Shown piece after piece: positions 9,380-33,452 of a DNA stretch of 35,291 bases (position 1 is the stretch's first letter; the number at the start of each line of letters is the position of its first letter). The position numbers were made by a program, and so were the translations under genes. Origin of the DNA: a virus; the IMG/VR virus record IMGVR_UViG_3300036782_000027, positions 1 through 35,291 of that record; one strand, 5' to 3'. The notes beneath the pieces are model-generated. The model was not told the origin of the DNA. It worked only from the letters and a program-made list of their open reading frames with translations, and did not search any database.

Positions 9380-9597
9380 AAGCCGAATGGACCGACAACG
9401 TCGACAAGGAACGCTGCCTATGCTGCGGCCAGCCGGTCAAGGAGCCGGTCGTGATGCGTTCGCCGGAACAAGCGGCGGCGACGTTTGCCGCGCTTCATAT
9501 GTTGGGTTTCACCCGCGACAGCTTGCTGACCAAGCATCGGCATCAGATCGACTACCAGACGCCGGGCCTCGCTGCATGGCTTGAGGATCACGCATGA
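9376..9597 (+). CDS. Hypothetical CxxC protein, 73 aa
   Basis: Contains CLCCGQPVKEP near the N-terminus, a single zinc-knuckle-like cysteine cluster, then a helical part (EQAAATFAALHMLGFTRDSL). Overlaps both neighbours by 4 bases (ATGA), so it belongs to the coupled ERF-YqaJ operon. Function unknown. Confidence 0.72.
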   Translation: MKAEWTDNVDKERCLCCGQPVKEPVVMRSPEQAAATFAALHMLGFTRDSLLTKHRHQIDYQTPGLAAWLEDHA

Positions 9598-9782
9598 CGC
9601 TGTTTCACCGTTTCAGGAACCGTCGGATGCCGTGGCTCGATCCGAAGGTGGGCTATCGCAACGATCCTGAATATCAGCGGCAGCGCGCGGTCGCGAAGCT
9701 GACCGGCGACGAGGAGGCGGTCGAGAAGCGGTGGTCGGCGCGGTGGCAGCAAAAGCTGGCGATGAAGGAGTTTCGTAAGTGA
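9594..9782 (+). CDS. Hypothetical basic protein, 62 aa
   Basis: Arg/Lys/Trp-rich helical protein (MTLFHRFRNRRMPWLDPKVG, later EKRWSARWQQKLAMKEFRK). Overlaps its upstream neighbour by ATGA and the following gene by GTGA. No recognised domain; the charge pattern would allow nucleic-acid binding. Confidence 0.68.
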   Translation: MTLFHRFRNRRMPWLDPKVGYRNDPEYQRQRAVAKLTGDEEAVEKRWSARWQQKLAMKEFRK

Positions 9783-10504
9783 AATTCTATCCCGTCGATC
9801 AGGGCTCGGTGTCTTGGTACGAGGCGCGGCTCGGCATTCCAACCGCGTCGAACTTCCACCGCATCGTGACGCCCAAGGGCAAGCCGTCGGCGCAGGCTGA
9901 CGTGTACATGTACAAGCTGATCTGCGAGCGCCTGCTACGCGAGACGCAGGACGACGAAATCGGGTTCGTGCGCTGGGTGGCGCGGGGCAAGGAAATGGAG
10001 CCCGCCGCCGTCTCGCATTTTCAGTTCGTCAACGAGGTTCAGCTCGAACCGGGCGGCTTCGTCACGACTGACGACGGGCGGATCGGCGCTTCGCCGGATC
10101 GGCTGTTCAAGGGGCATCGCGAGGCTCTGGAGGTCAAGGTTCCGGCTCCCCACACGCACATGGGCTATTTGCTCGACGGGTTGGGCGACGATCACCTGAT
10201 CCAGTTGCAGGGTCAGATTTTGGCTGGCGGTTTCGAGGGCGTTCATTTCCTGTCGTGGCACGGCCAGATGCCAGCCTTCCACAGGGTCGTGCTTCCTGAT
10301 CGAGGGTTTCAAGCCGTCTTGGCCAGCACGCTGAACGCGTTCTGCGATTTGCTTGACATCAAGACGGAGCGGGCGCGGGCGCTCGGGGCCTATGCGGTCG
10401 CGCGCCGTGTCGAGACTCCGGCCGAGGTCGCCTACAGCGACGAGCATGTGACACTCAAGCTGATCAACCCGGAAGAGGGGGACATGGGCGATGCGAGTGC
10501 ATGA
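9779..10504 (+). CDS. YqaJ/lambda-type 5'-3' exonuclease, 241 aa
   Basis: PD-(D/E)XK nuclease of the YqaJ/lambda exonuclease family. The family box QGSVSWYEARLGIPTASNF is at residues 8-26, an acidic E73 follows in ARGKEMEP, D107 is in GASPDRL and E118-x-K120 in LEVKVP, corresponding to the catalytic residues of lambda exonuclease, with the following DHLIQLQGQI helix also typical. It resects double-stranded DNA to give strands for the ERF annealing protein encoded upstream. The GTG start at 9779 overlaps the previous stop. The length is usual for the family. Confidence 0.92.
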   Translation: MKFYPVDQGSVSWYEARLGIPTASNFHRIVTPKGKPSAQADVYMYKLICERLLRETQDDEIGFVRWVARGKEMEPAAVSHFQFVNEVQLEPGGFVTTDDGRIGASPDRLFKGHREALEVKVPAPHTHMGYLLDGLGDDHLIQLQGQILAGGFEGVHFLSWHGQMPAFHRVVLPDRGFQAVLASTLNAFCDLLDIKTERARALGAYAVARRVETPAEVAYSDEHVTLKLINPEEGDMGDASA

Positions 10505-10703
10505 GTTTGTCTGCACCGATTGCAAGACGGACGTGTTCAGCTTCGGCGGCCCGCCTGACGAGACGCGTTGCGTGGGCTGCAACACGGTTCGCGAATTGAT
10601 GCCGATGCTGCCGGAACGCGAAAGGCAACTTCGCGACCTTCTCGGCTGCCAGCTCCCGAAGGATGACGATGCCCTACGCGCGACGGACCAAAGTCCCGGT
10701 TGA
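10491..10703 (+). CDS. Small zinc-ribbon protein, 70 aa
   Basis: Two CxxC pairs, CTDC and CVGC, about 17 residues apart, form a zinc ribbon (VHEFVCTDCKTDVFSFGG, then DETRCVGCNTVRE). It overlaps the exonuclease end by 14 bases and the next gene by 35 bases. The last dozen residues may be overlap read-through. Many phages carry such ribbons beside their recombination genes; the partner is unknown. Confidence 0.72.
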   Translation: MRVHEFVCTDCKTDVFSFGGPPDETRCVGCNTVRELMPMLPERERQLRDLLGCQLPKDDDALRATDQSPG

Positions 10704-11058
10704 CAAGACGCGGCTCGAAATCGAGCGGCTGGTGAAGCGGTTTGGAGCCAAGGGCTTCGCCTCCGGGTGGAGCGGCGCGTCGGCGCGCGTCGAGTTCTTC
10801 TGCCAGAACCGGCACATTCGACTGACCGTCGCGGTCCCTACGTCGGATCAAGCGGAGCGCGAGAAGTGGCGAGCCCTGTCCTTGCTGGTCAAGGCGAAGC
10901 TGGTCGCGGTCGACGCCAAGATTGCGACGTTCGAGGAGGCCTTCTTCGCCGACATTGTGATGCCGGAGACGGGCAAGACGGTTTGGGAGACGGCGCGCGA
11001 GCCCGTCAAGCTGGCCTACGAGGGCGGCAAGGGCGTCAAGCTGTTGGGAGGGTTCTGA
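10669..11058 (+). CDS. Conserved phage protein of unknown function, 129 aa
   Basis: Start at 10669 (MPYARRTKVPVDKTRLEIER) because GAAGG lies 6 bases upstream; an earlier in-frame ATG at 10663 abuts it. The N-terminal helix (IERLVKRFGAKGF) is followed by strands (SARVEFFCQNRHIRLTVAVP) and a helix (EKWRALSLLVKAKLVAVDAK), then FFADIVMPETGKTVWE. This layout is a recurring type in alphaproteobacterial phage recombination operons, without a known function. Confidence 0.8.
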   Translation: MPYARRTKVPVDKTRLEIERLVKRFGAKGFASGWSGASARVEFFCQNRHIRLTVAVPTSDQAEREKWRALSLLVKAKLVAVDAKIATFEEAFFADIVMPETGKTVWETAREPVKLAYEGGKGVKLLGGF

Positions 11059-11610
11059 ATGATCCGTCCGTACATCATCCGGCCCACGCCCCGGCACTTC
11101 GACTATGCCGACGGCGTCGGGTTGATCCGGCGCGGCGTCGGGCTGCGCGAGGGCAAGACGAACACCAACGGCTGGAAACCGTCGTTTGAGCTGGCGCTGT
11201 GGAAGGACCGGCAAAGCGCGCGGTGCGAGATGGCGGCCAAGCTGTGGCTGGACACGGTATGCGAGCGCGACGTGGAGTGGAACGAGCTGGACCTGAGTGT
11301 GAAGTGGGACTTGGCTGGCTTCATCGACGTGAAAGGGGTGGAGGAAGCCCACCATCGGCTTGGCGTCCAAAAGAACTTGCCGCCGCAGTTCGCCTACTTG
11401 CTGGTCGATAGCTGGAACCATCCCGACTACGCGATCGTCGGCTGGATGTGGGGGCACGAGGCCAAGCAAACGAAATGGTGGGAGGACCCCCAGCACGGCC
11501 CGGCCTTCTATCCGCCGCGCGACTTCCCGCCGATGCGGGACTGGAAAGAGCTTATCGAGGAGGTACGGAAACGTGAACTTATCCGAGGACAGACAGCTAA
11601 CGCCAAATGA
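11059..11610 (+). CDS. Hypothetical protein, 183 aa, possible nuclease-like fold
   Basis: Begins immediately after the previous stop. The centre, VKWDLAGFIDVKGVEEAHHR, contains a D-x-V-K that could be the core of a PD-(D/E)XK-type fold, followed by a conserved-looking QFAYLLVDSWNHPDYAIVGW strand pair and a Trp-rich end (KWWEDPQHGPAFYPPRDFPP). No family is recognised, so a nuclease role is only a possibility. Its position downstream of the exonuclease fits DNA metabolism. Confidence 0.72.
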   Translation: MIRPYIIRPTPRHFDYADGVGLIRRGVGLREGKTNTNGWKPSFELALWKDRQSARCEMAAKLWLDTVCERDVEWNELDLSVKWDLAGFIDVKGVEEAHHRLGVQKNLPPQFAYLLVDSWNHPDYAIVGWMWGHEAKQTKWWEDPQHGPAFYPPRDFPPMRDWKELIEEVRKRELIRGQTANAK

Positions 11611-11818
11611 ACGCCTGCGGGTCGGGGTCGCCGTTCTGATCAACGGGTGGGACACGCACAAGGTCGCCGCGCTTCTGGGGGTGGAGCCGGAGCGGGTTGC
11701 CGAGGCCGTGGCGAGCCTCAAGCTTTCGCTGGAAAATATGTCCACCGATCGGGTGGGCGCGCGGCTCGCCGGGCTGGAGGCGGTCGCCCGGTCTGTCGGA
11801 GGCCAATCCGATGGCTAG
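11573..11818 (+). CDS. Small protein with HTH-like segment, 81 aa
   Basis: GTG start at 11573, preceded by GAGGAGGT at a good distance and lying inside the end of the upstream gene. The segment LINGWDTHKVAALLGVEPERVAEAVASL has the helix-turn-helix character of a resolvase/sigma-like DNA-binding motif (residues about 22-50). The C-terminus (RVGARLAGLEAVARSVGG) is helical. A regulator for later genes is possible. Ends with the ATGGCTAG overlap to the next small ORF. Confidence 0.7.
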   Translation: MNLSEDRQLTPNERLRVGVAVLINGWDTHKVAALLGVEPERVAEAVASLKLSLENMSTDRVGARLAGLEAVARSVGGQSDG

Positions 11819-11918
11819 CGGTGGCGTCTGGGGCGTAAACCGCCTCTTGTGGCTATACCCCCACCGGCCAACCCAGAAAGTGGCTCCAGCCACAGCCGGA
11901 GGCTCGGGGCGTGGCTAG
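11811..11918 (+). CDS. Micro-ORF, 35 aa
   Basis: Begins at ATG 11811 in an 8-base overlap (ATGGCTAG) with the previous gene and ends in an 8-base overlap (GTGGCTAG) with the next gene, so it bridges two genes exactly. Product MASGGVWGVNRLLWLYPHRP followed by a Gly/Ala-rich end. It may be a real microprotein, or simply a translational coupling device. Confidence 0.45.
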   Translation: MASGGVWGVNRLLWLYPHRPTQKVAPATAGGSGRG

Positions 11919-12243
11919 TCTGGCGTATCATCGGGCCTACATGCGGGAATGGCGCAAGACGCATCCGATGAACGAGGAGCAGCGGCGAAGGGACAACTGC
12001 CGGTCCTATGCCCGACAGTACCTCTTGCGCGGCTTACTCAAGCAGTTGCCCTGCCGCGTCTGTGGCTCCGAGGCTTCCCAGATGCACCACCCGGACTACG
12101 ACAAGCCGCTCGACGTATTGTGGCTTTGCAAGAAACACCATCTTGAGTCGCATAAACTAGAGCGTGTAGACATCATTCTGCACACGCTAGAGTGCATGTT
12201 TCATACGAAACAGGTGAGCTGTAATGCCGTGGACGGACCTTAA
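11911..12243 (+). CDS. HNH/zinc-finger-like small nuclease candidate, 110 aa
   Basis: GTG start in an 8-base overlap with the preceding ORF. The core CRVCGSEASQMHHPDYDKPL, then VLWLCKKHHLESHK, gives CxxC ... HH ... CxxHH, a compact zinc module resembling HNH-type endonucleases and common in phages. The N-terminal half (YHRAYMREWRKTHPMNEEQR) is a basic helix likely to contact DNA. Whether it cuts DNA is not certain because a full HNH triad was not verified. Last gene of the plus-strand operon; it converges on a minus-strand gene 7 bases away. Confidence 0.7.
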   Translation: MASLAYHRAYMREWRKTHPMNEEQRRRDNCRSYARQYLLRGLLKQLPCRVCGSEASQMHHPDYDKPLDVLWLCKKHHLESHKLERVDIILHTLECMFHTKQVSCNAVDGP

Positions 12244-12250
12244 AACCGGG

Positions 12251-12628
12251 CTAGCGTCTCGACGACAACCACGTCAGCGGGCCAACGATGATGACCGAGT
12301 AAATTCCCAGCGCCGCAAGGCGAAGGAGGTCAGGTTCGCGGATCGCGATGACAGTGAGGTAGAACGCCCCGACGATCGCGATCAGCAAGATCAATCTGAC
12401 CGCCAAGACAATCGCTAAAACATTGATTGCGCCCAGAACGCCAGCGCGCCACGCGGCTCGATGTTGGAACTCGGCGGACGGCTGGCTAGGCGGCGTCGTC
12501 GCCGCCGTCGTCTTCATCCCCGAAACCAGCCCCGCCAGATCCGGCGTGGTCTTTTCCGCCACTAACTGCATGGGGGCGCGCGAACGCGGCGGAGTATTTG
12601 CGGACGGCTGACCCGATTGATCCGTCAT
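12251..12628 (-). CDS. Small membrane protein, 125 aa
   Basis: The N-terminal 55 residues are polar; two hydrophobic segments follow (about 63-100: LGAINVLAIVLAVRLILLIAIVGAFYL) with another near the end (AALGIYSVIIVGPLTWL). This is typical of phage- or plasmid-borne small inner-membrane proteins of unknown role. It overlaps the previous gene out of phase for 143 bases, so its N-terminal part (MTDQSGQPSANTPP...) is either overprinted or it starts at the internal ATG about 19 residues in. It is the last gene of the internal-virion block. Confidence 0.68.
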   Translation of the reverse strand: MTDQSGQPSANTPPRSRAPMQLVAEKTTPDLAGLVSGMKTTAATTPPSQPSAEFQHRAAWRAGVLGAINVLAIVLAVRLILLIAIVGAFYLTVIAIREPDLLRLAALGIYSVIIVGPLTWLSSRR

Positions 12629-12875
12629 TGAAAGCCTGTTTCCGTAGGTTGGCGAACATGATCTGGACCCGGCCGACGGCGATCAGGGCGGCGATTCGCT
12701 GCGGCATCGTCATCGTCTCGTCCCGGTCGGCTGACTCAAGGTCGTCCAAGAGCCGCGCGATTTGACGGTAAAGCCTCGCGTTTACGTCGAGGGGATCACC
12801 GACTTGGGGTTTCGATGTAGTCGCCGCTGCCGTCGTCTTTCGTGACGCTATAGCCTGTTTTGTCGGTTTGCTCAT
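12486..12875 (-). CDS. Hypothetical helical protein, 129 aa
   Basis: AAGGAG stands 8 bases before the ATG at 12875. A basic Thr/Ala-rich start is followed by a helical domain (LYRQIARLLDDLESADRDE; MTMPQRIAALIAVGRVQIMF; FANLRKQAFNDGSIG). The last about 45 residues are Gly/Asp-rich and overlap the membrane-protein gene. No family is assigned. It overlaps the preceding gene by 80 bases. Confidence 0.65.
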   Translation of the reverse strand: MSKPTKQAIASRKTTAAATTSKPQVGDPLDVNARLYRQIARLLDDLESADRDETMTMPQRIAALIAVGRVQIMFANLRKQAFNDGSIGSAVRKYSAAFARPHAVSGGKDHAGSGGAGFGDEDDGGDDAA

Positions 12876-13641
12876 ATCCAGCTCCTTGCAAGGCGCGCTC
12901 GTAGCCTGCGCCTGCGACTGCCGGTTTCAGTTTGGATGCCGCCGCAGCCGTTCCTCCCACCAGACCACCGAGGCCGTAAGCGAGCCAGTGCGGTATCCAA
13001 TGGTGCCCGCCAGCCCTGTCTATGGCCAGCACTCCCCCGCCGACGGTGGCGCCCGCGTGAAGCAAATGCTTCATCGCTGGCGTCAACGCCTCGTAGGCCA
13101 TCCGCCCGGCCGCGAGGGTTGCGGATGACACGCCGCCCTCGACGGCGCCGCGCTTGGTGCGGTCGATGAACTGGTTTGGGTCTTTGACTTCCTCGTTGTG
13201 AACGGCGGCCTCACTGCCGCCGCCGAACGCGCCCTTGGCGGTGTCCTCGATCGCGCGGCCAGCTCGGGTGGCCCACGTCGCGGCTCGCGGTCCCACCTTG
13301 GCCGCGAGCTGCCCCAGCTTGGTGCCGACGCCCAGCTCGGGGACGAGCATGAACGGGGCGACGTTGGCGGCGATGTCACCGCCGGTTTCACCCCACTGTT
13401 CAGCTTGCGAGGTCGGGTCGCCCGGCGAGCCTGACCAATCCTTCCAGCCTTTCCCTTCGATGCTTTCGGGGATCATGCTGGCGACGCCCTTGGCCGCGCC
13501 GTAGCCCAAGCCCTTGCCAAAGTTGAGCGCACCTTGGACCGGAGGCGAGTACTCGTCGCCGCCGCCGCCGGAGCTGCCACTTTCGGCTTGGATGCTCGGG
13601 GCGACTTTTTTCCATTCCTCGTCGGTGAGGGCTCGGGGCAT
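12796..13641 (-). CDS. Putative internal virion/ejection-type protein, 281 aa
   Basis: Begins MPRALTDEEWKKVAPSIQAE, followed by a Gly/Ala-rich, mildly hydrophobic body (LNFGKGLGYGAAKGVASMIP; AIDRAGGHHWIPHWLAYGLG GLVG) that would allow membrane interaction. No catalytic motif. It follows the 665-aa protein directly (shared base at 13641). Such Gly/Ala-rich amphipathic proteins next to a virion transglycosylase are typical of podovirus ejection proteins, but this is inference from context. Confidence 0.6.
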   Translation of the reverse strand: MPRALTDEEWKKVAPSIQAESGSSGGGGDEYSPPVQGALNFGKGLGYGAAKGVASMIPESIEGKGWKDWSGSPGDPTSQAEQWGETGGDIAANVAPFMLVPELGVGTKLGQLAAKVGPRAATWATRAGRAIEDTAKGAFGGGSEAAVHNEEVKDPNQFIDRTKRGAVEGGVSSATLAAGRMAYEALTPAMKHLLHAGATVGGGVLAIDRAGGHHWIPHWLAYGLGGLVGGTAAAASKLKPAVAGAGYERALQGAGYEQTDKTGYSVTKDDGSGDYIETPSR

Positions 13642-15638
13642 CAGTCAGCCGCCATCCAGTTTTCGCGCGCGTCGCGGTCGATTTGGTTCTTGCCGGTCCA
13701 CAAGAGCCGCTTCCCGTTGTGAACGACGATGTCCTTCATTGGCCGCGCGCCCGTGACATAGTCCATGAGCTTGTAGTCTTTGATCGTCTCGAAAGCTTCG
13801 GCCGACGGGCGATCGTCGCCGCTCGGCAAGTTGTCGTCCTTGCCGCCGATCGAGCGCCACCGGCTGCGCACGGCGTCAATCATGCCGTCGACGCCGGACA
13901 TGTGGCCTTTGATGACGTTGCGATAGGTGGCGAGCGGAGCGATCTGCGGGATTGAGCCGCTGGCCGCGCGCGACCCGGACTCGGTGTGTCGGCCGCCGCT
14001 GACGATCGTATTGTACGCATCGTTGTAGGCGAGGAAGTCGGTGTGGAGCCCGACATATTTCGGGTCGCCCATGAAGTTTCTAACGATGGCGTCCATGTTG
14101 ACGTTGGACGTACTCAAGCCTCGCTTTTTGAGGTCGGCCTCGACAGTCCGCAGATCGGTGTTCAAACGATCCGCCATCGCGGCGAGGTCCTTCGTCCGCG
14201 CCAGCGTGGTCTGGGTGCTTACGTCGGTCCTGAACCGTTGCTGGTCCTGATAGAAACCTTGGTTCCATTTCGGGTCGACGAGCTGGGCGAGGTTGCGCAG
14301 CCGGTCGGAATATTGCCCGGCCTTGGTGCCGGGTGAGGCTCCGGTGCCGGACGTGCCGCCGGAGGCTGGCATCTTGTAGTCGAGGACCGATTTAACGTCG
14401 CTCGCCACGGACGGGTTGATTTGCTTGATCCGGTCCAAGACTTGCGCCGGGTCTTTCGGCGGATTGCGTTCGAGGTTTTCCAAGGCGGTGATTTGTTCAG
14501 CGCCGCGCAGCGTCCCCTCGCGCGCCGCCTTGGGGAACATCTTCATCATCGCGCCGTCGGGCTCGACGCCTCTGACGGTGGAGGTTGCGATCGAGTCGAC
14601 AGGGGTTTCCTCCGGCGTGGCCGGGTCCGTCGTGTCTGGTGCGCCAGGTCCGGCGACTTTATCGCCGGGCAGCTTGGCTGTCGGGGGCGCGGCTGGCGCT
14701 GGAGCGCCGGTCGTTGGATCGACTGCCGCCGCCGGAGCTGCGGGAGCTGCCGGAGCTGCGGGAGCTGCGCCGGGAGCTGCGGGCAATGGATAGGCGCTAG
14801 TGTCCTTCGTTTGCGCCGGGGTCAGGCCCCACCGCTTGTCGTCGACGGTGTCGTCGTCCATTGCCTGCTTGGTCTTGTGGAGGTCGCGCAATCGTTGGTC
14901 GCGATGCTCCAAAAATTTCTTCACGTCGGATGGCATGGCTCCGGCTTCGATCAGTTCGCCCAGCGAGCCGGGACCGATGTCGCCGATTTCGACAGCCTTG
15001 GCGTGGAGCGCATCCGTCATGCTCCTGCCCTTGATGCTGCGGCCGAGTGTCGGATCGAGCGCGCTATATTCCCCCCAAATGTCGGAGTACGCGGTCAATT
15101 GCTCCGTTGCACGTTCTTTCAGTTGCTGCATGTGCAGGGCGAGCTGTTCCTTGGCGGTCTTGGCGGCCTCCGAACGCCCTTGCTGGACGCCTTCAAGGAA
15201 CTGCCCGGCGTAAGGCCCCATCATCATCGCGATCTGGGCGAGGTTCGCGCCGCCGTTTTGGCTGTAAAACTTGCTCAAGCCCTGCGCGATTTGAGGAACC
15301 TCGAACGGTTGCGGCAATTGCGGGAATCGCTCCTCCTGCCCCCACTGGTGATGAGGGCGAGGGAGCATCGCGCCCGTGAACGGGGTGAATTGGGGCGTTG
15401 GCGGGGTCGGAGCGCCCGGTCTGAGGGCCAAATTTTGCCGTCTGGGCTGGTTCCATTCGGGCATCCGGCTCGGGTCCGGCCGCCCCGTGTCCTGCTGCTG
15501 CTGCTGTTCGAGGTCTGGCGGCGGGCGCGGGGCCGGGCTGCCTCCGAACATCGAACGGAACCGCTGCACCATCATCGGCAGCGGGCTGTACGTCTGCTGT
15601 GCGGCGGCTAGCGGATCATTCTGGAAACCGTCAGACAT
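13641..15638 (-). CDS. Large low-complexity virion-associated protein, 665 aa
   Basis: The N-terminal third is Pro/Gln-rich (for example PDLEQQQQQDTGRPDPSRMP) and a long Ala/Pro-rich stretch (about 285-350) links to a more structured helical C-terminal half (FRTDVSTQTTLARTKDLAAM; AYNDAYNTIVSGG; DGMIDAVRSRWRSIGG). No enzymatic motif is seen. Its size and position between a transglycosylase-containing protein and a Gly-rich protein suggest an internal virion (ejection) protein. The Shine-Dalgarno before the ATG is weak; a 34-base element (15640-15673) ends two bases upstream of the start. Confidence 0.65.
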   Translation of the reverse strand: MSDGFQNDPLAAAQQTYSPLPMMVQRFRSMFGGSPAPRPPPDLEQQQQQDTGRPDPSRMPEWNQPRRQNLALRPGAPTPPTPQFTPFTGAMLPRPHHQWGQEERFPQLPQPFEVPQIAQGLSKFYSQNGGANLAQIAMMMGPYAGQFLEGVQQGRSEAAKTAKEQLALHMQQLKERATEQLTAYSDIWGEYSALDPTLGRSIKGRSMTDALHAKAVEIGDIGPGSLGELIEAGAMPSDVKKFLEHRDQRLRDLHKTKQAMDDDTVDDKRWGLTPAQTKDTSAYPLPAAPGAAPAAPAAPAAPAAAVDPTTGAPAPAAPPTAKLPGDKVAGPGAPDTTDPATPEETPVDSIATSTVRGVEPDGAMMKMFPKAAREGTLRGAEQITALENLERNPPKDPAQVLDRIKQINPSVASDVKSVLDYKMPASGGTSGTGASPGTKAGQYSDRLRNLAQLVDPKWNQGFYQDQQRFRTDVSTQTTLARTKDLAAMADRLNTDLRTVEADLKKRGLSTSNVNMDAIVRNFMGDPKYVGLHTDFLAYNDAYNTIVSGGRHTESGSRAASGSIPQIAPLATYRNVIKGHMSGVDGMIDAVRSRWRSIGGKDDNLPSGDDRPSAEAFETIKDYKLMDYVTGARPMKDIVVHNGKRLLWTGKNQIDRDARENWMAAD

Positions 15639-26419: not shown

Positions 26420-26940
26420 ACGGAAAACGCCTGAATGATGGTGGCGAAGCCGCTGCCGATGACTTGGACGTTTTGGCCGTCGGCCAAGACCGTCCCGGCC
26501 GAGTTAGGCTGGATCATGGTCAGCGTGCCGGTGGGGATCGGCACTTGCATCCAGCCGAACCAATTTGGCGGCCGATGTCCGGCGAGCGGCCGGATCGGCG
26601 GATCGGTGCGTCCGGTCTTGCGCTGCCACGCGCGCCACGCCTCGAGGTAATCGTCGTAGCGCATGAACGGCGGCGGGGGAGGGGGTCCGCAGCCTGGCGG
26701 CGGCGTCGCGCATGTGGATTGGGGTGGTCCGCCGCGTGGCAATTGGCCGGTCCCCGGAGCCCGCGCCGGGTTGTAGCTCGGAACTGGAGGGACGAGCATG
26801 ATGACGCAATTCGAACTCGTCGAGACGACCCATGCGCCCTTTGGCAGGGTGTAGGGGAAGCGACCGATTTGACGCGGTTTCCCGAACGGCGACAGCCCTG
26901 CGCCGGGTGGTCCGGGCGGCCATGCCTGAACGGGCAGCAT
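26416..26940 (-). CDS. Pro-rich virion-associated protein, 174 aa
   Basis: Starts in a TAATG overlap with the major capsid stop. The first 95 residues are Pro/Gly-rich with a run of prolines (GCGPPPPPPFMRYDDYLEAW); a helical piece follows, then a beta end (GTLTMIQPNSAGTVLADGQN, VQVIGSGFATIIQAF). No family is recognised. Position directly after the capsid gene suggests a capsid-decorating or stabilising role. Confidence 0.65.
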   Translation of the reverse strand: MLPVQAWPPGPPGAGLSPFGKPRQIGRFPYTLPKGAWVVSTSSNCVIMLVPPVPSYNPARAPGTGQLPRGGPPQSTCATPPPGCGPPPPPPFMRYDDYLEAWRAWQRKTGRTDPPIRPLAGHRPPNWFGWMQVPIPTGTLTMIQPNSAGTVLADGQNVQVIGSGFATIIQAFSV

Positions 26941-27956
26941 TAGAAGGGTGCGCCTCCCGTTATGCCTTGGAGCTGGACCCCGGTCGATGGCTTAGAGCAG
27001 ACCAGATTGAGCGCAGTAAGCGATAGGCCCACGCTGGCAATCTGCCCTTGCGGGATGGTGGAGTACCAGCCGGTCCAGGCGAAGTTGGCGTCCTCGTGAA
27101 CGACGAGGGTGATGTACTTCGAATTGAAGCCATAGGCGGTCCCCTGCGGACAGTTAAGGTCAAAGAACAGCGGGGTGTCGCCCAATAGGAGACCTCGGAA
27201 GCCTGAATTGACAGGATCATCCTTTCCCCATCGGCTTGACGGGTCATTGTTGTACCTTTCGACCGACATGAAGTCGGTCAGGAGCGTCGTCCAGTCTTCG
27301 ACCGACATGACGACGAAATCGAGCGCCTCGCCGCCCGAATTTTTCACTGCGGCGAGCATTTTCGGGATGAACGTCGCCCGGGTGAGGATGGCGCCCGCCG
27401 CTGGCGTGACCAAGGCCTGCCAGTCGGGATAGGTCGCGCGCGACAGGCCTCCGTAGCTGGGAGCCGTGGCGGTGTCGCCGTAGGCGTCCTGCAAGGAAAA
27501 CATCTGCAAGACGTTGGTTGTCGGCGGCCCGAACAGGGCGCTCGACAAGGCCTGCAACGAGCTGTTCTTGAGGTCGTTCAGCTTGAGCATCAGGCGCGAG
27601 GCGACGGCGATCGCGTCCTGAGTGACGAGCTGTTCGAGCCCAAGCGAGCTGACCGGGGTGGCCAGACAACACATATTAAATTCGGCATTTACGGTCGCGG
27701 CCACGTCGGCGGGCAAGTTGAATTGGCCTGCCGGACCAATCCAGCTCGATTGGACGTACTGCCCGGTCTGCACGGGCTGGGTGTAGGGGCTCACACCGCC
27801 GCTGGCCCGGATCGCGTTGCGCAATAGCAGCGCGAGCAGCGGGTTTTGCTTGTAGATCAGGATGACGACCATCTGGGCGAAGACGCGCCGGACAGTTGCT
27901 TCAAGTTCCAGCCCAATGGGGCCGGATGGGATTAGGCCCGCGCCAAGAATCGGAAT
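26940..27956 (-). CDS. Major capsid protein (HK97-type), 338 aa, ATT start
   Basis: Capsid-type protein: an N-terminal helical part (NPLLALLLRNAIRASGGVSP), a central domain (LVTPAAGAILTRATFIPKML; SVEDWTTLLTDFMSVERYNN; RGLLLGDTPLFFDLNCPQG), and the typical beta end (NSKYITLVVHEDANFAWTGW then GQIASVGLSLTALNLVCSKP). The only in-frame ATG (27872) has no ribosome site, whereas the frame is open for 28 further codons up to an ATT at 27956 that stands five bases after AGGAGG. I therefore place the start at ATT, giving a product beginning with the residues PILGAGLIPSGPIGLELEAT after the initiator. It assembles the icosahedral head. Confidence 0.85.
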   Translation of the reverse strand: MPILGAGLIPSGPIGLELEATVRRVFAQMVVILIYKQNPLLALLLRNAIRASGGVSPYTQPVQTGQYVQSSWIGPAGQFNLPADVAATVNAEFNMCCLATPVSSLGLEQLVTQDAIAVASRLMLKLNDLKNSSLQALSSALFGPPTTNVLQMFSLQDAYGDTATAPSYGGLSRATYPDWQALVTPAAGAILTRATFIPKMLAAVKNSGGEALDFVVMSVEDWTTLLTDFMSVERYNNDPSSRWGKDDPVNSGFRGLLLGDTPLFFDLNCPQGTAYGFNSKYITLVVHEDANFAWTGWYSTIPQGQIASVGLSLTALNLVCSKPSTGVQLQGITGGAPF

Positions 27957-28513: not shown

Positions 28514-28847
28514 TTGTGGCCTCCCGCCAAAACATGCCCCGCGCCGCGCCGCGCCTGACGTTTTCCTTGTGCGTCACAGCCTCAAGGTGGGGCTCGGCGA
28601 TGCAGTAGGGCACTCTGCAAAGATGATCTAGCTCAAACCCCTTTGGAACCGGCCCGTTTTTCAGCTCGTAGGAGACTGTCGCCGCCTTGCGCCTGACTTG
28701 GACGCCGGGCGCATCCGTACAGGTGATGCGGCCATATCCGTCCTTGTCCAGCGTCGCGAGCCATATCTGGCAACCCGACGGTGTTCTGAACGAAAGTCGC
28801 TCAAGCCTTTCGGCGAGCGGCTTGGGCTTGGGGCCGCGCTTGCCCAT
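28506..28847 (-). CDS. HNH homing endonuclease-like protein, 113 aa
   Basis: Starts MGKRGPKPKPLAERLERLSF, then the family pattern GCQIWLATLDKDGYGRI, a basic stretch, and FELDHLCRVPYCIAEPHLEA followed by HKENVRRG. The D-H in ELDHLC and the later N-V form the ββα-metal core of HNH_3-type enzymes. Such genes are usually selfish elements in phage late operons. The gene overlaps both neighbours slightly (start with the 61-aa gene, stop with the scaffold). Confidence 0.82.
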   Translation of the reverse strand: MGKRGPKPKPLAERLERLSFRTPSGCQIWLATLDKDGYGRITCTDAPGVQVRRKAATVSYELKNGPVPKGFELDHLCRVPYCIAEPHLEAVTHKENVRRGAARGMFWREATSA

Positions 28848-29032
28848 CAGCTATTGTTCGTCTTGCCGGTCACTGACGGCTGGAGCGGCACGCCGCCTTC
28901 CGGTTTCGGCACCACCTTGGGGATGGCGCCCCACTCGCTGACCTCGGACTGCACGTCCACCTGTAGGATGGTCCGGGGCGGTGTCTCGGGCGGTGTCGTG
29001 ATCGGCGGATCGTAAGATCGGTTCTGAGCCAC
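28847..29032 (-). CDS. Hypothetical Pro-rich protein, 61 aa
   Basis: Small Pro/Thr-rich protein (YDPPITTPPETPPRTILQVD; later WGAIPKVVPKPEGGVPLQPS). The stop shares a base with the HNH start (TGATG). No domain. Probably a small structural or accessory protein of the head region. Confidence 0.6.
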   Translation of the reverse strand: MAQNRSYDPPITTPPETPPRTILQVDVQSEVSEWGAIPKVVPKPEGGVPLQPSVTGKTNNS

Positions 29033-29044
29033 AGGAAGTCTCCT

Positions 29045-29362
29045 TTACTCGTCCTCTTCCGGTTTCTGCATCGGCGGCGGCTGACTTTGCCGGGGGCGCT
29101 GGCCTCCGCCCTGATCGCTGAGTGGCTGGCCTCTGGCGTCGGTTTGCGGATAGCCCGGCTGGCCTTGCTGGGAATGGTGCCTCGCCTGCTGGGTCGCGTC
29201 GTGGGCGCTGGTGCTGTGCAAGTGCGCGCTTTCAGCGTGTTCCGCCGCGTCCTCGTGCTGCTCGCCCTCGTGGGCTTCGGCCGCCTTGTGGTGCGCCTTC
29301 ATCGCGTCTTCGTGCTTTTGGGCCGCCGTACGGTGCTTGTCACCAGCCGGATGCTTGGCCAT
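29045..29362 (-). CDS. Histidine-rich protein, 105 aa
   Basis: Start at 29362 (MAKHPAGDKHRTAAQKHEDA) with GGAAGGA upstream; the frame is open to a TTG at 29380. The first 65 residues contain many His, Ala, Glu and Lys (KAHHKAAEAHEGEQHEDAAE; HAESAHLHSTSAHDATQQAR) and are predicted helical; the end is Gln/Pro/Gly-rich. Similar His/Ala-rich helices are known in bacteria and phages, with possible metal binding; role unknown. Confidence 0.65.
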   Translation of the reverse strand: MAKHPAGDKHRTAAQKHEDAMKAHHKAAEAHEGEQHEDAAEHAESAHLHSTSAHDATQQARHHSQQGQPGYPQTDARGQPLSDQGGGQRPRQSQPPPMQKPEEDE

Positions 29363-29381
29363 TTCCGATTTCCTTCCCAAA

Positions 29382-29418
29382 GTTAGGGTAGCGTGTCAAT
29401 CGTATCGATTGACACGCT
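29382..29418. promoter_or_regulatory. 34-base element, copy A, with perfect 13-bp palindrome
   Basis: Intergenic. Contains GTTAGGGTAGCGTGTCA (29382-29398) identical to the minus-strand copy at 15673-15657. It is also part of a perfect 13-bp inverted repeat, AGCGTGTCAATCG at 29390-29402 and CGATTGACACGCT at 29406-29418, with the 3-nt loop TAT. As RNA it is a strong hairpin between the PDQGLP-repeat gene and the His-rich gene, but no T-run follows in either direction. Confidence 0.6.
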
Positions 29419-29427
29419 GTCTTGTGT

Positions 29428-29955
29428 TTACGTCCGCTTCGGCTGCGGGGTTGGCGGCAAGCCTTGGTCAGGTCGGCCACCGGGCGCGATCGGATGCGAG
29501 GGCCGATGTCCGCCGCCGCCGCCTTCCGGCAAGCCCTGATCCGGCCGCGCGTCGGCGTCGATCACGACGTAGCGGTACATGGCGCCCTGCCCGCCACCGC
29601 CGATCAGGACGAGGGCGATATACTTGCCGTGGACGCCCGGAGGCAGGGGCGGCCAGATGGTGCCGGGCGGCAGCACGATCGGATGCTCGGGATGCTCGCC
29701 GCCACCGGAGGGCGGCAAGCCCTGATCGGGATGCTCGGGCGCCGGAACCCACGGATGCTCGGGGGTGAGCGGTGGCCAGATGCCGGGTGGCGGCGTCGGC
29801 AAGCCGATGTCGGGATAGCCGGGTCCCGGCCAAATCCCTACGCCTTCGTCAACCCCATAGTCGGGATCAACCGGACCCTCGACGCCGGGAAGCCCTTGAT
29901 CGGGGTGCCCGCCCCCGCGCTTGCGCAACCTTAGAAATCCACTGACAAACGGCAT
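29428..29955 (-). CDS. Pro/Gly-rich repeat protein with PDQGLP units, 175 aa
   Basis: Four copies of [H/R]PDQGLP (near residues 17, 75, 137 and 162) plus a variant YPDIGLP. A folded-looking strand block, VHGKYIALVLIGGGGQGAMY then YVVIDADARPDQG, lies between the third- and fourth-copy regions. It is preceded by a good ribosome site (AAGGAGG, 7 bases). Proteins of this repeat type occur near head genes of related phages; the function is unknown, possibly capsid decoration. Confidence 0.72.
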   Translation of the reverse strand: MPFVSGFLRLRKRGGGHPDQGLPGVEGPVDPDYGVDEGVGIWPGPGYPDIGLPTPPPGIWPPLTPEHPWVPAPEHPDQGLPPSGGGEHPEHPIVLPPGTIWPPLPPGVHGKYIALVLIGGGGQGAMYRYVVIDADARPDQGLPEGGGGGHRPSHPIAPGGRPDQGLPPTPQPKRT

Positions 29956-29985
29956 GAAATTTCCTCCTTCAATGAACCTGTTTAA

Positions 29986-30555
29986 TCAGGCGATGCCGGG
30001 AATATCACGCTTCCGTGAACGCGCCGCGTAGGCGAGGCCGCCCGCGCCAAGCAGCATCATCACCCATGTCGACGGCTCGGGGATCGCGCTCGACGCGACG
30101 AACGAGCCTGAACCGCTGATCAGGTCGCCTGCGCCTCCCGCCTGAGTGAACGACAGGTCGAGGACGCCAACCGTCCCGCCGGGGACGCCGGGGCCGGTCA
30201 GGATGCCGCTGCCGCTAAGGTCGAGTTCGTCGCCGACAAAGCTGGCGGAACTCGTCTTGGTGGTGTCGGAAAACGTGCCGCCATCCCACGAGATGGTGAT
30301 GAACCCGCCGATCGCGGTCGGAAGCGGATTGGTCAGCGTCAGCAGGGAGCCGCCCGCCAGACCGCCAAGCGGATCGACCACTTCGTTCGCCGTCCACGTT
30401 GTGACGCCGACAGAAGTCGCGCCGTCAAGAGTACTGTTCGGGTTGGCGGTGATCCCGGTGGCGTTGGCGGTGAAGTCCGTCTCGGTGATGACCGCGGCGG
30501 CGCTCGGGCTCGTCAAAGCTGCCAGAAGTGCAACTGATAACCACAATCTGTTCAT
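29986..30555 (-). CDS. PEP-CTERM sorting-domain protein, 189 aa
   Basis: Start at 30555 (MNRLWLSVALLAALTSPSAA), a clear signal peptide, with AGGAAAGGG upstream. The mature part is a Gly/Thr/Ser-rich beta-type domain (VITETDFTANATGITANPNS; FITISWDGGTFSDTTKTSSA). The C-terminal about 30 residues, beginning at about 158 with IPEPSTWVMMLLGAGGLAY and ending in an Arg/Lys cluster (ARSRKR), are a full PEP-CTERM signal: PEP motif, transmembrane helix, basic tail. This tag is cut by host exosortase in polysaccharide-producing Gram-negative bacteria. A phage-borne PEP-CTERM protein is uncommon. Confidence 0.85.
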   Translation of the reverse strand: MNRLWLSVALLAALTSPSAAAVITETDFTANATGITANPNSTLDGATSVGVTTWTANEVVDPLGGLAGGSLLTLTNPLPTAIGGFITISWDGGTFSDTTKTSSASFVGDELDLSGSGILTGPGVPGGTVGVLDLSFTQAGGAGDLISGSGSFVASSAIPEPSTWVMMLLGAGGLAYAARSRKRDIPGIA

Positions 30556-30556
30556 G

Positions 30557-30584
30557 GAGTGCCCTTTCCTGTGTCTTGGCACTC
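30557..30584 (-). promoter_or_regulatory. Hairpin holding the PEP-CTERM ribosome site
   Basis: GAGTGCC at 30584-30578 and GGCACTC at 30563-30557 (minus strand) form a 7-bp stem with a 14-nt loop that holds most of the AGGAAAGG ribosome site. The stem ends one base before the ATG. Folding would control access to the start codon, so translational regulation is possible. Confidence 0.45.
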
Positions 30585-30592
30585 AATGGCTA

Positions 30593-31168
30593 TCACGAGC
30601 CCGGCAAGGGCGTCGAGGGCATAGGAGCGCCCTGACCGCCGGGACTTGGGGTCTGACCGGGCCGCCCGCCGCCGGGTTTTTGCCCGAAGAGACGCTGCAA
30701 AAGCTGGTTTTGGATGGTCCGCTTCATCTGATCGCCCAGCATGGTCTTCTGCACGCCGACGGCCGGACCCATCCCGGCGCCGCCGCCGAGATGCCGGGAA
30801 AGCTGAGTGGCGGCGCGCAGCGCGTCGCGGTGGAGCTGGCTTCCGGGCTCCAAGCCAAGCGCCGCTTGCTGGATGAGCTGGACGGCTTGCTGCAACAGCA
30901 TCGAGGCGTCGGCTTGGTTGCCGGGGCCGGGCGTCGAGACTTGCGGCCCCATGCGTGAGCGCGCGAACGCCGCCAATCCACCGGGGCCGGGAGGTCCGCC
31001 GCCACCCGGTACGGGAGGAGGACCGGGAGACGGAGGCCCGCCGGGAGGTGCGCCGCTGCCCGGCGGCTGCCCCTGACCTGAATCGTCTTCGCTCGCGCTG
31101 TCGACAAACGACATGTTCATTGCCCCGGAGACCGCCCCCGGCAAGTTGCGGTTGGCGGGGGCGGTCAT
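30593..31168 (-). CDS. Portal-region structural accessory protein, about 191 aa
   Basis: Start is uncertain: ATG 31168 (MTAPANRNLPGAVSG), or 31120/31114 (MNMSFVDSASEDDSG). No clear ribosome site is present for any of them. A Pro/Gly-rich region (SGAPPGGPPSPGPPPVPGGG) precedes a helical part (ASMLLQQAVQLIQQAALGLE; ALRAATQLSRHLGGG; KRTIQNQLLQRLFGQK) with Gly/Pro-rich end. It follows the portal and homing-type gene, so a virion assembly role is likely. No known domain. Confidence 0.65.
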   Translation of the reverse strand: MTAPANRNLPGAVSGAMNMSFVDSASEDDSGQGQPPGSGAPPGGPPSPGPPPVPGGGGPPGPGGLAAFARSRMGPQVSTPGPGNQADASMLLQQAVQLIQQAALGLEPGSQLHRDALRAATQLSRHLGGGAGMGPAVGVQKTMLGDQMKRTIQNQLLQRLFGQKPGGGRPGQTPSPGGQGAPMPSTPLPGS

Positions 31169-31236
31169 CCCGTGTGTGCCTGTTGGAGGGGATTCCTGCC
31201 AGGACCGGGACGGCGGGAAGTTAGCGCCGCAGCGCG

Positions 31237-31698
31237 CTATTGACAAACGGACCTGTTCGCCACCTGCTGCTTTTGCGTCGCCCAGCGGCAATTTCCGGGC
31301 TCGTAGCCTCGCTCGTTGTCCTTGCGATCAATTGAAAGCCCTGTCGGCGGATCGCCCATTTCAGCATAAAATTCCTCAAAGTTCGCATAGTGAACCTTGA
31401 TCCCGCGCCCGCCATAGCGTTTGAAAAAGCGGTTCTTCGGGTTGTTGCACCGCTGAAGCATGTTGCACCAAATTTTATAGATTTTGCTTCCAGTTTGCCT
31501 GTGCGTGAAGCGCGATTCACGCCGCCAGCATCCGCAAGATTGGATAGCTCCGATCTTAAGATGGTTGGATAAAACGAGGGCTTGGTTGCCGCAGTCACAT
31601 TGGCACAGCCATTTTGCATGTTGGTCGCGGCCACTACCTTGCCGCTCTAGGGCTATGAGGCGTCCAAAGCGCAAGCCAGCGATGTTTGCAAAAGCCAT
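31237..31698 (-). CDS. HNH-type homing endonuclease-like protein, 153 aa
   Basis: The phage HNH-type pattern with N-terminal zinc module: KWLCQCDCGNQALVLSNHLK (Cys pair about residues 32/34), QSCGC, then KIYKIWCNMLQRCNNP, RYGGRGIKV and SIDRKDNERGYEPGNCRWAT near the end. These match phage homing-type endonucleases of the HNH/AP2-associated group. The usual C-terminal DNA-contact segment after the 'QQ..N' box is short, so it may be a trimmed or inactive copy. It is inserted between portal and the accessory protein. Confidence 0.8.
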   Translation of the reverse strand: MAFANIAGLRFGRLIALERQGSGRDQHAKWLCQCDCGNQALVLSNHLKIGAIQSCGCWRRESRFTHRQTGSKIYKIWCNMLQRCNNPKNRFFKRYGGRGIKVHYANFEEFYAEMGDPPTGLSIDRKDNERGYEPGNCRWATQKQQVANRSVCQ

Positions 31699-31715
31699 CC
31701 GCGCAGTTTAACAGG

Positions 31716-33452
31716 TCAGTGTTTGGTCTGACCAGCCCCCGACGCCTTGCGTCTGGACCCGCCGCCTTCTTTGATCCCCAGAAGCCCCTTGACCAGTTCT
31801 TCCTTCTTTTCCTCTTTGGCCGCCTCGGCTTGGGCTTTTTGCCGTTGTTTTAACCGGGCCAAAAGCAATTCCGCACCCGGCGGGTGTAACATGTGGATCA
31901 GGTCTTCGGCGTCGATCGCTCCTGCTCTAGCGAGCGCAATAGCCACTTGACGATTGTCCTCCGCGAAGGCTGGCGACGCGGAGTGGCTGTCGACTTGGAC
32001 TTGGAAGTTGCCGGGGAGCTGGCTGAGTAGGAACTCTTGCTGGGTGTCGGCGGTCGTGTAGACCAGCGCGTCCATGGCTTGCATGATGCGGAGGGCGAGG
32101 AAGCCGACATCGGCGAGCTGGCGCTCGATGCGCGCGGCTTGCTTGATAAGGTGGGGTGATGACGTTCTAACCAGAGTCTGAGCGTGGACTCCAGCGCGGA
32201 CTCCCGACTCGCCTTGTCCTGACATGATCGGGCTGAATCCAGCAGCTTCATCAAACAACTTGAAAACAAACTCAAGTTCTTCCAAGTAGTTTTCCGGTGG
32301 GGGGTCCAGTAGCTTCGACGCTTTCGCGTTGGGATTTGGGTCGTTAATAAAACCTCCCTCATTGACAATCTTATAGTATTGCTCCTCGGTGACGCTGGTG
32401 AATCCGCTGAAGACTTGAGGGGCATTGACATTGCGGTCCCACATTATTTTGATGTCGCGCAGCCGCTTGTTCAGCATGTCCTGCAACATCTGCACGTCGG
32501 CGATGCTGGAGCGGCCCCAGAAATAGCCGGGCGTCTCATGCCCCTGCACCTTGACGAACGCGTGCTTGCCGGGGATGCGCGACAGGTTGCGCCGGGTTTC
32601 ATCGCCTTCTATGACGATCGGGTCGTGACCGTAAAGCACTTGGATTGTCGTCCAGTCCTCCTCCCGGTCGCGATCCTTCACCCATAGCTCGCAGTGTTTG
32701 ACGGTCGGGGCGAATCGCCGGTTCGGGCGCCACGGCGTCGGAACGGGAAAGACGTTGACGATCCCGGCCGCAGAGGACGGCGCGTCGCCAACGTCTCCCA
32801 ACGGTTGCAGCCCGCCCACAACCATTTGGTGAAAGTAGGTCGATTCCTCCTCGTCGCGATCCGGCCCCGGATCGTCGTCGAGCTGCGCCATGATTTGGTT
32901 GTAGCGCGGATGATCGATGAGCGAGGTCCGCAGGCGCGACTTGCTCGGATAGCTGACGTGGCAGAACGCCTCTTGCTCGTCGAGATGCAGCGTCGTCTCG
33001 GACAGGACGCCGAAATTCTGCGGGTGAACTTGCGCCACCTTGAACGTGCCACTGTCGCCGTCAGGCAAAACCTTTAACAGGCCGCAGCCATTGATCAGGC
33101 TCCATGTCACGGCGTCGGCGAAGGTGACGTCGGCGTCGACTTGGCGGAAGTCGGCCGACAGCTTCTCGCCCACCAGCTCGGAGCGTTCGAGGACGCTGTC
33201 GTCCTCGCCGCTGTCATAGATCAGGCGCAGCCGGACATCGGTCGGCTGCATCAGGAAGCCAGCGAGCTTGTCGACGAAGGATTTGGTCTTGTTGTACAGG
33301 GCGGCGCGGCTGTCGGCCGCCCCGGTGTAATAATATTGGCCCGCTCGGGTGTAGACCATCCCGCGCTCGCTGGAGCTGGCCATGCACTCGTCGATCATCT
33401 CCTTGACCCAAGCCTGCATGGTGGCGGGGTTCGACGGGATTTTGAGCGCCAT
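31716..33452 (-). CDS. Portal protein, 578 aa
   Basis: Long portal-type protein: MALKIPSNPATMQAWVKEMI, a clip/wing-like middle (FADAVTWSLINGCGLLKVLP; GHETPGYFWGRSSIADVQML), the helical QDMLNKRLRDIKIMWDRNVN stem segment, and the crown-like C-terminus with AFAEDNRQVAIALARAGAID and a basic tail (KQRQKAQAEAAKEEKKEEL). The length and gene order (portal before scaffold and capsid) fit podoviral portals. It forms the dodecameric DNA channel at the capsid vertex. Confidence 0.86.
   Translation of the reverse strand: MALKIPSNPATMQAWVKEMIDECMASSSERGMVYTRAGQYYYTGAADSRAALYNKTKSFVDKLAGFLMQPTDVRLRLIYDSGEDDSVLERSELVGEKLSADFRQVDADVTFADAVTWSLINGCGLLKVLPDGDSGTFKVAQVHPQNFGVLSETTLHLDEQEAFCHVSYPSKSRLRTSLIDHPRYNQIMAQLDDDPGPDRDEEESTYFHQMVVGGLQPLGDVGDAPSSAAGIVNVFPVPTPWRPNRRFAPTVKHCELWVKDRDREEDWTTIQVLYGHDPIVIEGDETRRNLSRIPGKHAFVKVQGHETPGYFWGRSSIADVQMLQDMLNKRLRDIKIMWDRNVNAPQVFSGFTSVTEEQYYKIVNEGGFINDPNPNAKASKLLDPPPENYLEELEFVFKLFDEAAGFSPIMSGQGESGVRAGVHAQTLVRTSSPHLIKQAARIERQLADVGFLALRIMQAMDALVYTTADTQQEFLLSQLPGNFQVQVDSHSASPAFAEDNRQVAIALARAGAIDAEDLIHMLHPPGAELLLARLKQRQKAQAEAAKEEKKEELVKGLLGIKEGGGSRRKASGAGQTKH

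Follow-up and report, generated by a model that had tools for sequence, protein, structure and literature searches.

The window is the whole of an IMG/VR record of a soil phage, 35,291 bases without a tie to a host genome, and on its minus strand, at 29986–30555, lies a gene for a 189-residue protein of the PEP-CTERM kind. The gene sits between the portal gene upstream (31716–33452, minus strand; 29%–30% identity over 90% to an annotated portal homologue, MW202825/MW202753) and the major capsid gene downstream (26940–27872, minus strand; phrog_9953 major head protein, E 1e-20). All three share a strand, and the PEP-CTERM gene is separated by 37 nt from the gene that precedes it and by 30 nt from the next; the operon position between portal-region and capsid genes that an earlier note on this DNA had assigned to it therefore stands. 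A scan of 29300–31800 for promoter-like sites, covering the sigma-70 type only, found none.

Two invariant genes, present in all 90 of the distinct related loci collected through portal and capsid searches, bound a variable slot: one upstream at 30593–31135 and one downstream at 28847–29032 (both minus strand). Besides the PEP-CTERM gene, the slot in the window encodes a proline-rich protein with PDQGLP repeats (29428–29955, minus strand), homologues of which adjoin PEP-CTERM genes on other phage contigs and lie directly upstream in 9 of 12 loci; this protein may be a functional partner of the PEP-CTERM protein. A small His/Ala/Lys-rich protein, MAKHPAGDKHRTAAQKHEDAMKAHHKAAEAHE... (29045–29365, minus strand), occurs in 4 of the 90 loci; similar proteins are encoded at the slot in further loci. 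Two further genes on the same strand are likewise accessory: an HNH endonuclease gene (PF13392; 28506–28847) found in 12 of 90 loci and a gene with a zinc-finger-like Cys pattern (31237–31698) found in 8 of 90.

The PEP-CTERM gene begins with ATG, a few bases upstream of which stands AGGAAAGG, and its translation reads MNRLWLSVALLAALTSPSAAA^VITETDFT...SSAIPEPSTWVMMLLGAGGLAYAARSRKRDIPGIA. Residues 1–21, MNRLWLSVALLAALTSPSAAA (30493–30555), form a putative signal peptide, called by eye from an n-region MNR, a hydrophobic core, and an AXA-type end. The passenger follows at about residues 22–157 (30085–30492): 136 residues rich in Gly, Thr, and Ser, with one Lys and neither Arg nor Cys. The protein ends in a sorting tag, IPEPSTWVMMLLGAGGLAYAARSRKRDIPGIA (29989–30084), composed of a PEP motif, a transmembrane helix, and a basic cluster. 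PF07589 matches at 33.1 bits (E 5e-8; gathering cutoff 20.7) over its whole 24-position profile, at residues 157–182, and TIGR02595 matches at 21.9 bits (cutoff 16); together with the signal peptide, these scores bear out the bipartite export tag described in the earlier note. Three narrower families fall below their cutoffs: PEPxxWA-CTERM (NF035944) at 29.1 bits against 35, the window tag reading WVMM; NF038129 at 33 against 65; and the FxDxF PEP-CTERM family (NF038126) at 27 against 50.

AlphaFold2 places only two helices in the protein, at residues 3–14 and 161–184, with no other transmembrane helix between the putative signal peptide and the C-terminal tag. The passenger itself is modelled as all-beta with moderate confidence (mean pLDDT 66); the model had no match in the PDB at E < 0.001, and profile searches for an enzymatic or polysaccharide-binding family matched none. 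Cys is absent from both signal peptide and passenger, so the lipobox cysteine of Llp/Cor-type lipoproteins is missing. Codon use is ordinary for the genome (GC3 0.79), and the recent transfer that the earlier note had raised is ruled out by this likeness to the phage's own genes.

Portal identity is 77% or higher throughout the close clade, which comprises 38 loci with the window counted in. Homologues of the window protein in related phages are 52%–81% identical to it, and 33 of the 38 loci carry a slot gene with signal peptide and sorting tag; because the same architecture is kept so widely, the window tag is far above chance. A signal peptide is present in every tag-carrying slot gene of the clade. 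The motif reads PEPSTW in 20 of the 33 genes, PELSTW and PEASTW in four each, and PEARTW and PEISTW in two each, so that PE-x-[SR]TW is retained in 32; the tag is therefore not degenerate in all homologues, and the refuting outcome named in the earlier note did not occur. The third residue differs (PEA, PEL, PEI) in about a third of the clade, the Pfam PEP-CTERM model matches 22 of the 33 genes at E 0.001, and some relatives pass the PEPxxWA-CTERM cutoff of 35 bits (35.5 and 39.1). A single slot gene, in locus L364, has VPGPVVGAGLPG in place of the motif. In that locus, passenger B (one of the three passenger types described below) at 1339–1995 carries the tail VPGPVVGAGLPGVIVGCGFLVLLAMTRRKARGLVV where a PEP tag would be expected, and this tail is possibly another sorting signal.

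The tagged slot gene is absent from five close relatives and from nearly all distant ones. Among distant loci (n = 58), the slot is mostly empty, measuring 5–482 bp in 54; L059 and L120 are distant loci with a slot gene. Where the gene is present it is under purifying selection, with a median whole-gene dN/dS of 0.34 for type A, 0.21 for type B, and 0.37 for type C; within type B, the passenger stands at 0.16 and the tag at 0.35.

These types are defined by the passenger: A, as in the window; B, beginning LQIEVFDNG...; and C, beginning SVENIGSI.... Profiles of A and B align in the 34-residue tag only. Those of B and C align weakly over their full length with a high profile probability, which they owe at least in part to their common signal peptide and tag. 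Types B and C also score 40.8–48.2 bits with the FxDxF PEP-CTERM family, just under the cutoff of 50; taken with the weak alignment, these scores make it possible that both types stem from PEP-CTERM proteins of hosts. The structure prediction for passenger B is poor (mean pLDDT 45).

On the portal tree, the passenger labels require at least 12 changes. The course of such a change can be followed between locus L041 (type B) and locus L031 (type C), from two nearly identical phages. Their flanking DNA agrees at 92% upstream and 94% downstream, and within the gene the signal peptide is 75% identical, the tag 84%, and the passenger 46%. Only the passenger has been replaced; homology persists in the signal peptide, in the tag, and on both flanks. 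The main point, which was absent from the earlier note, is that, as read from the sequences, passengers are swapped inside a conserved frame of signal peptide and tag in several phage lineages.

Passenger B is found at 69 viral loci. In about 50 distinct loci it is 82%–100% identical over 161 residues, and a few distant copies are 57%–59% identical. The signal peptides and tags attached to it vary in sequence, the architecture being nearly always the same; since sequence is conserved in the passenger more than in the parts around it, selection seems to act on the mature protein. Contigs with passenger B reach 80 kb and have different neighbours, among them helicase, lysis, and tail genes, with passenger B often on the opposite strand. 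Tagged proteins reach further still: a tag-only scan of viral contigs gave 128 confirmed matches, and on each of five contigs of another phage lineage (L012–L016) a pair of PEP-CTERM genes stands in tandem, the tags reading PEPSTWVMMGGGFALL...RKRR and PEPSTWAMLIAGFGLL...KKRG. Provirus record L258 holds four PEP-CTERM genes within five kilobases (9452–14359), beside a terminase-like gene; in the family sample, this second isolate prophage gives a partial match only.

The nearest bacterial tags, from a scan (A2) that returned mostly tag-only matches, belong to Bradyrhizobium, other Hyphomicrobiales, and Sphingomonadales, and an exosortase is encoded in six of eight genomes of the groups concerned. 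The earlier note's proposal that a host exosortase cuts the tag is upheld in part by this: the enzyme is present in the bacterial group with the nearest tags, but the host of this phage may lie outside that group and lack it. Among 61 sampled Bradyrhizobium genomes, PEP-CTERM proteins occur in nine of the nine with an exosortase versus 5 of the 52 without (Fisher P 1e-7). The five exceptions (G414, G421, G425, G431, and G442) have PEP-CTERM genes with no exosortase detected and could reflect incomplete assemblies, other enzymes, or mobile elements.

A prophage offers a view of tag and enzyme in one genome. Over 3,053 bp, IMG/VR provirus L270 matches the B. erythrophlei GAS478 genome without a difference, and at 9458–10700 the provirus carries two PEP-CTERM genes inside its tail module, on the strand opposite to the tail genes (the flanking sheath and assembly chaperone genes were recognised by eye). 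Two prophages of 80% identity align to L270 outside this pair only. Both prophage tags exceed the PEPxxWA-CTERM cutoff, and elsewhere in the GAS478 genome, away from the prophage, an exosortase V is encoded (324 bits; cutoff 313); it shows the Cys, Arg, and His motifs that Haft et al. reported (PMC1569441). That XrtV is the partner of the PEPxxWA-CTERM tag is deduced from the shared genome and from adjacent accession numbers. The window tag appears to resemble this class, though it scores below the cutoff. The GAS478 case supports, rather than proves, the use of an XrtV-like host enzyme by the window phage.

The phages themselves seem to bring neither the enzyme nor a means of integration: no exosortase was found in 16 phage records and no integrase in 12, records which may be fragments. 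GTDB genomes yielded no capsid relatives and no provirus of the window clade, and since integrase, phage exosortase, and provirus are all missing from these sets, the clade is probably virulent and dependent on a host exosortase. No portal relatives were found in 385 alphaproteobacterial genomes, passenger B is absent from 297 genomes of the order scanned, no close bacterial homologue of the passengers was found, and P0001 had no match in phage or plasmid records. Candidate hosts were not separated by tetranucleotide correlation.

These observations suggest that phages borrow a bacterial surface-sorting machine to alter the surface of the cells they infect. The protein would be made late, along with the head proteins, to judge from the position of its gene. 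It would then cross the inner membrane by its signal peptide, presumably through Sec, and be held there by the C-terminal helix until a host exosortase—by tag class probably XrtV-like—cuts at the PEP motif. The passenger would thereby be released or attached, either on the outer surface or within the exopolysaccharide, and the change in the surface would most likely stop related phages from adsorbing and keep released progeny from being wasted on debris or on the cell that made them. Of these steps, exosortase cleavage, surface location, and exclusion are ones that we infer; the sorting appears well supported by sequence, so that the earlier note's idea of a host exosortase holds up at that level, while function is the weakest step. 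A host-exosortase-dependent surface protein that excludes related phages or protects progeny is the reading we favour, with a chance that we put at nearly even.

Exclusion is preferred because frequent exchange of a displayed protein fits competition between phages. T5 Llp, a lipoprotein, gives a precedent for keeping progeny from adsorbing to debris and to cells already infected (PMC9586334). Llp, however, is an early protein, and the late expression proposed here suits protection of progeny better than early exclusion. The window sequence holds no pointer to a receptor. Surface blocking, receptor masking, and biofilm modification, which the earlier note had put forward, are candidate roles.

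The main rival keeps the same sorting route and puts the passenger to work on exopolysaccharide or biofilm, where it would loosen or coat the matrix and help progeny to get out and spread. In bacteria, PEP-CTERM proteins and exosortases do work in exopolysaccharide association, flocculation, and biofilm formation (PMC1569441; PMC12188702), and types B and C nearly reach the cutoff of a bacterial PEP-CTERM family, the FxDxF one. Against this stand the profile searches, which matched no enzymatic or polysaccharide-binding family, and the rapid exchange of passengers, which suits competition or variable targets better than a single task in the matrix. We regard a matrix effect as rather unlikely, if still worth serious consideration.

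Less probable again, and on balance doubtful, is an ordinary membrane-anchored periplasmic phage protein whose PEP tag serves as a tail anchor only, in a host without exosortase. Such a protein is unlikely to retain PE-x-[SR]TW in 32 of 33 genes or to pass the PEP-CTERM model, and in Bradyrhizobium, PEP-CTERM genes track the exosortase save in the five positive genomes in which none was detected. In favour of a plain anchor are the drift of the third motif residue in some relatives, the different C-terminal tail of L364, and the scarcity of exosortases (just 9 of the 61 sampled Bradyrhizobium genomes), an enzyme that the host may lack.

That the protein is a decoy, occupying the host exosortase so that the host's own surface proteins are not delivered, is very unlikely. 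It has a complete substrate tag, and none of the 16 phage records encodes an exosortase; for a decoy, however, the tag alone would suffice, yet the passengers are under purifying selection (dN/dS 0.16 for passenger B), and it is the passenger that different phage lineages have in common. Use in the virion, which the earlier note had offered as an alternative, draws on the place of the gene within the head gene cluster and is highly improbable: the signal peptide would export the protein from the cytoplasm, where heads are assembled, and the gene is missing from the five close relatives and nearly all distant ones. This role was rejected on the genomic context of passenger B, which in other phages lies away from head genes; its neighbours there are helicase, lysis, or tail genes, often running in the other direction. 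Passive capture of a host gene of no benefit to the phage, to which the resemblance of types B and C to a bacterial PEP-CTERM passenger family (below its cutoff) might point, is the least credible of all, given purifying selection, retention in 33 of 38 loci, spread across phage lineages, phage-like codon use, and the failure to find a close bacterial passenger homologue; it would show as a dN/dS close to 1 or as haphazard decay among relatives, which the data already contradict.

The favoured reading, that of a surface protein sorted by the host exosortase, can be extended beyond the window clade. Several lineages of soil phage may share a cassette, with a fixed or host-tuned frame and a swapped passenger, and use it to fight over surfaces by way of the host exosortase; this wider proposal is tentative, with the balance lying somewhat against it. 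T5 Llp and phage proteins like it that act on the envelope are lipoproteins, and if the favoured reading is true, phages would have in the exosortase route another means of remodelling the surface of exopolysaccharide-building bacteria. Research on exosortases would gain natural competing substrates and a direct test of the division of work between tag and passenger. The tag ought to fit an exosortase of the host, and so it would also help in predicting hosts for a large group of soil phages that are uncultured.

Literature on PEP-CTERM proteins or exosortases with phages, prophages, or viruses, covered mainly through titles and abstracts and including few subscription journals, reports no phage PEP-CTERM protein. 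The nearest known system is that of bacterial PEP-CTERM proteins (PF07589/TIGR02595; Haft et al. 2006, PMC1569441), with which the window protein shares the signal peptide, PEP motif, transmembrane helix, and basic cluster, as well as a mature part without a known domain. The bacterial genes, however, form single-gene operons behind a large intergenic region, whereas the window gene is phage-encoded and lies in a late gene cluster after a gap of 37 nt, and phage passengers are exchanged inside a fixed frame. The PEPxxWA-CTERM/exosortase V pair (NF035944/NF035943) is similar in its PEP-STW[AV]M tags, and some relatives and the Bradyrhizobium prophage genes pass its model; the window tag, with WVMM, falls short of the bits needed.

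With regard to function, the lytic-conversion or superinfection-exclusion lipoproteins of the T5 Llp type are likewise small exported phage proteins in the host envelope. Llp, however, is expressed early and is a lipoprotein; the signal region of the window protein lacks Cys, and the protein relies on an exosortase tag at its C-terminus. The accessory slot resembles that of prophage morons, accessory genes by which a prophage changes the lysogen's surface, as does the GAS478 pair, which runs against the strand of the tail genes. The window phage differs from their carriers in having no integrase in its record, and its gene, accessory in its presence, runs in the direction of the head genes and showed no promoter-like site of its own in the sigma-70 scan. 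The parts are of known kinds; their combination appears to be new.
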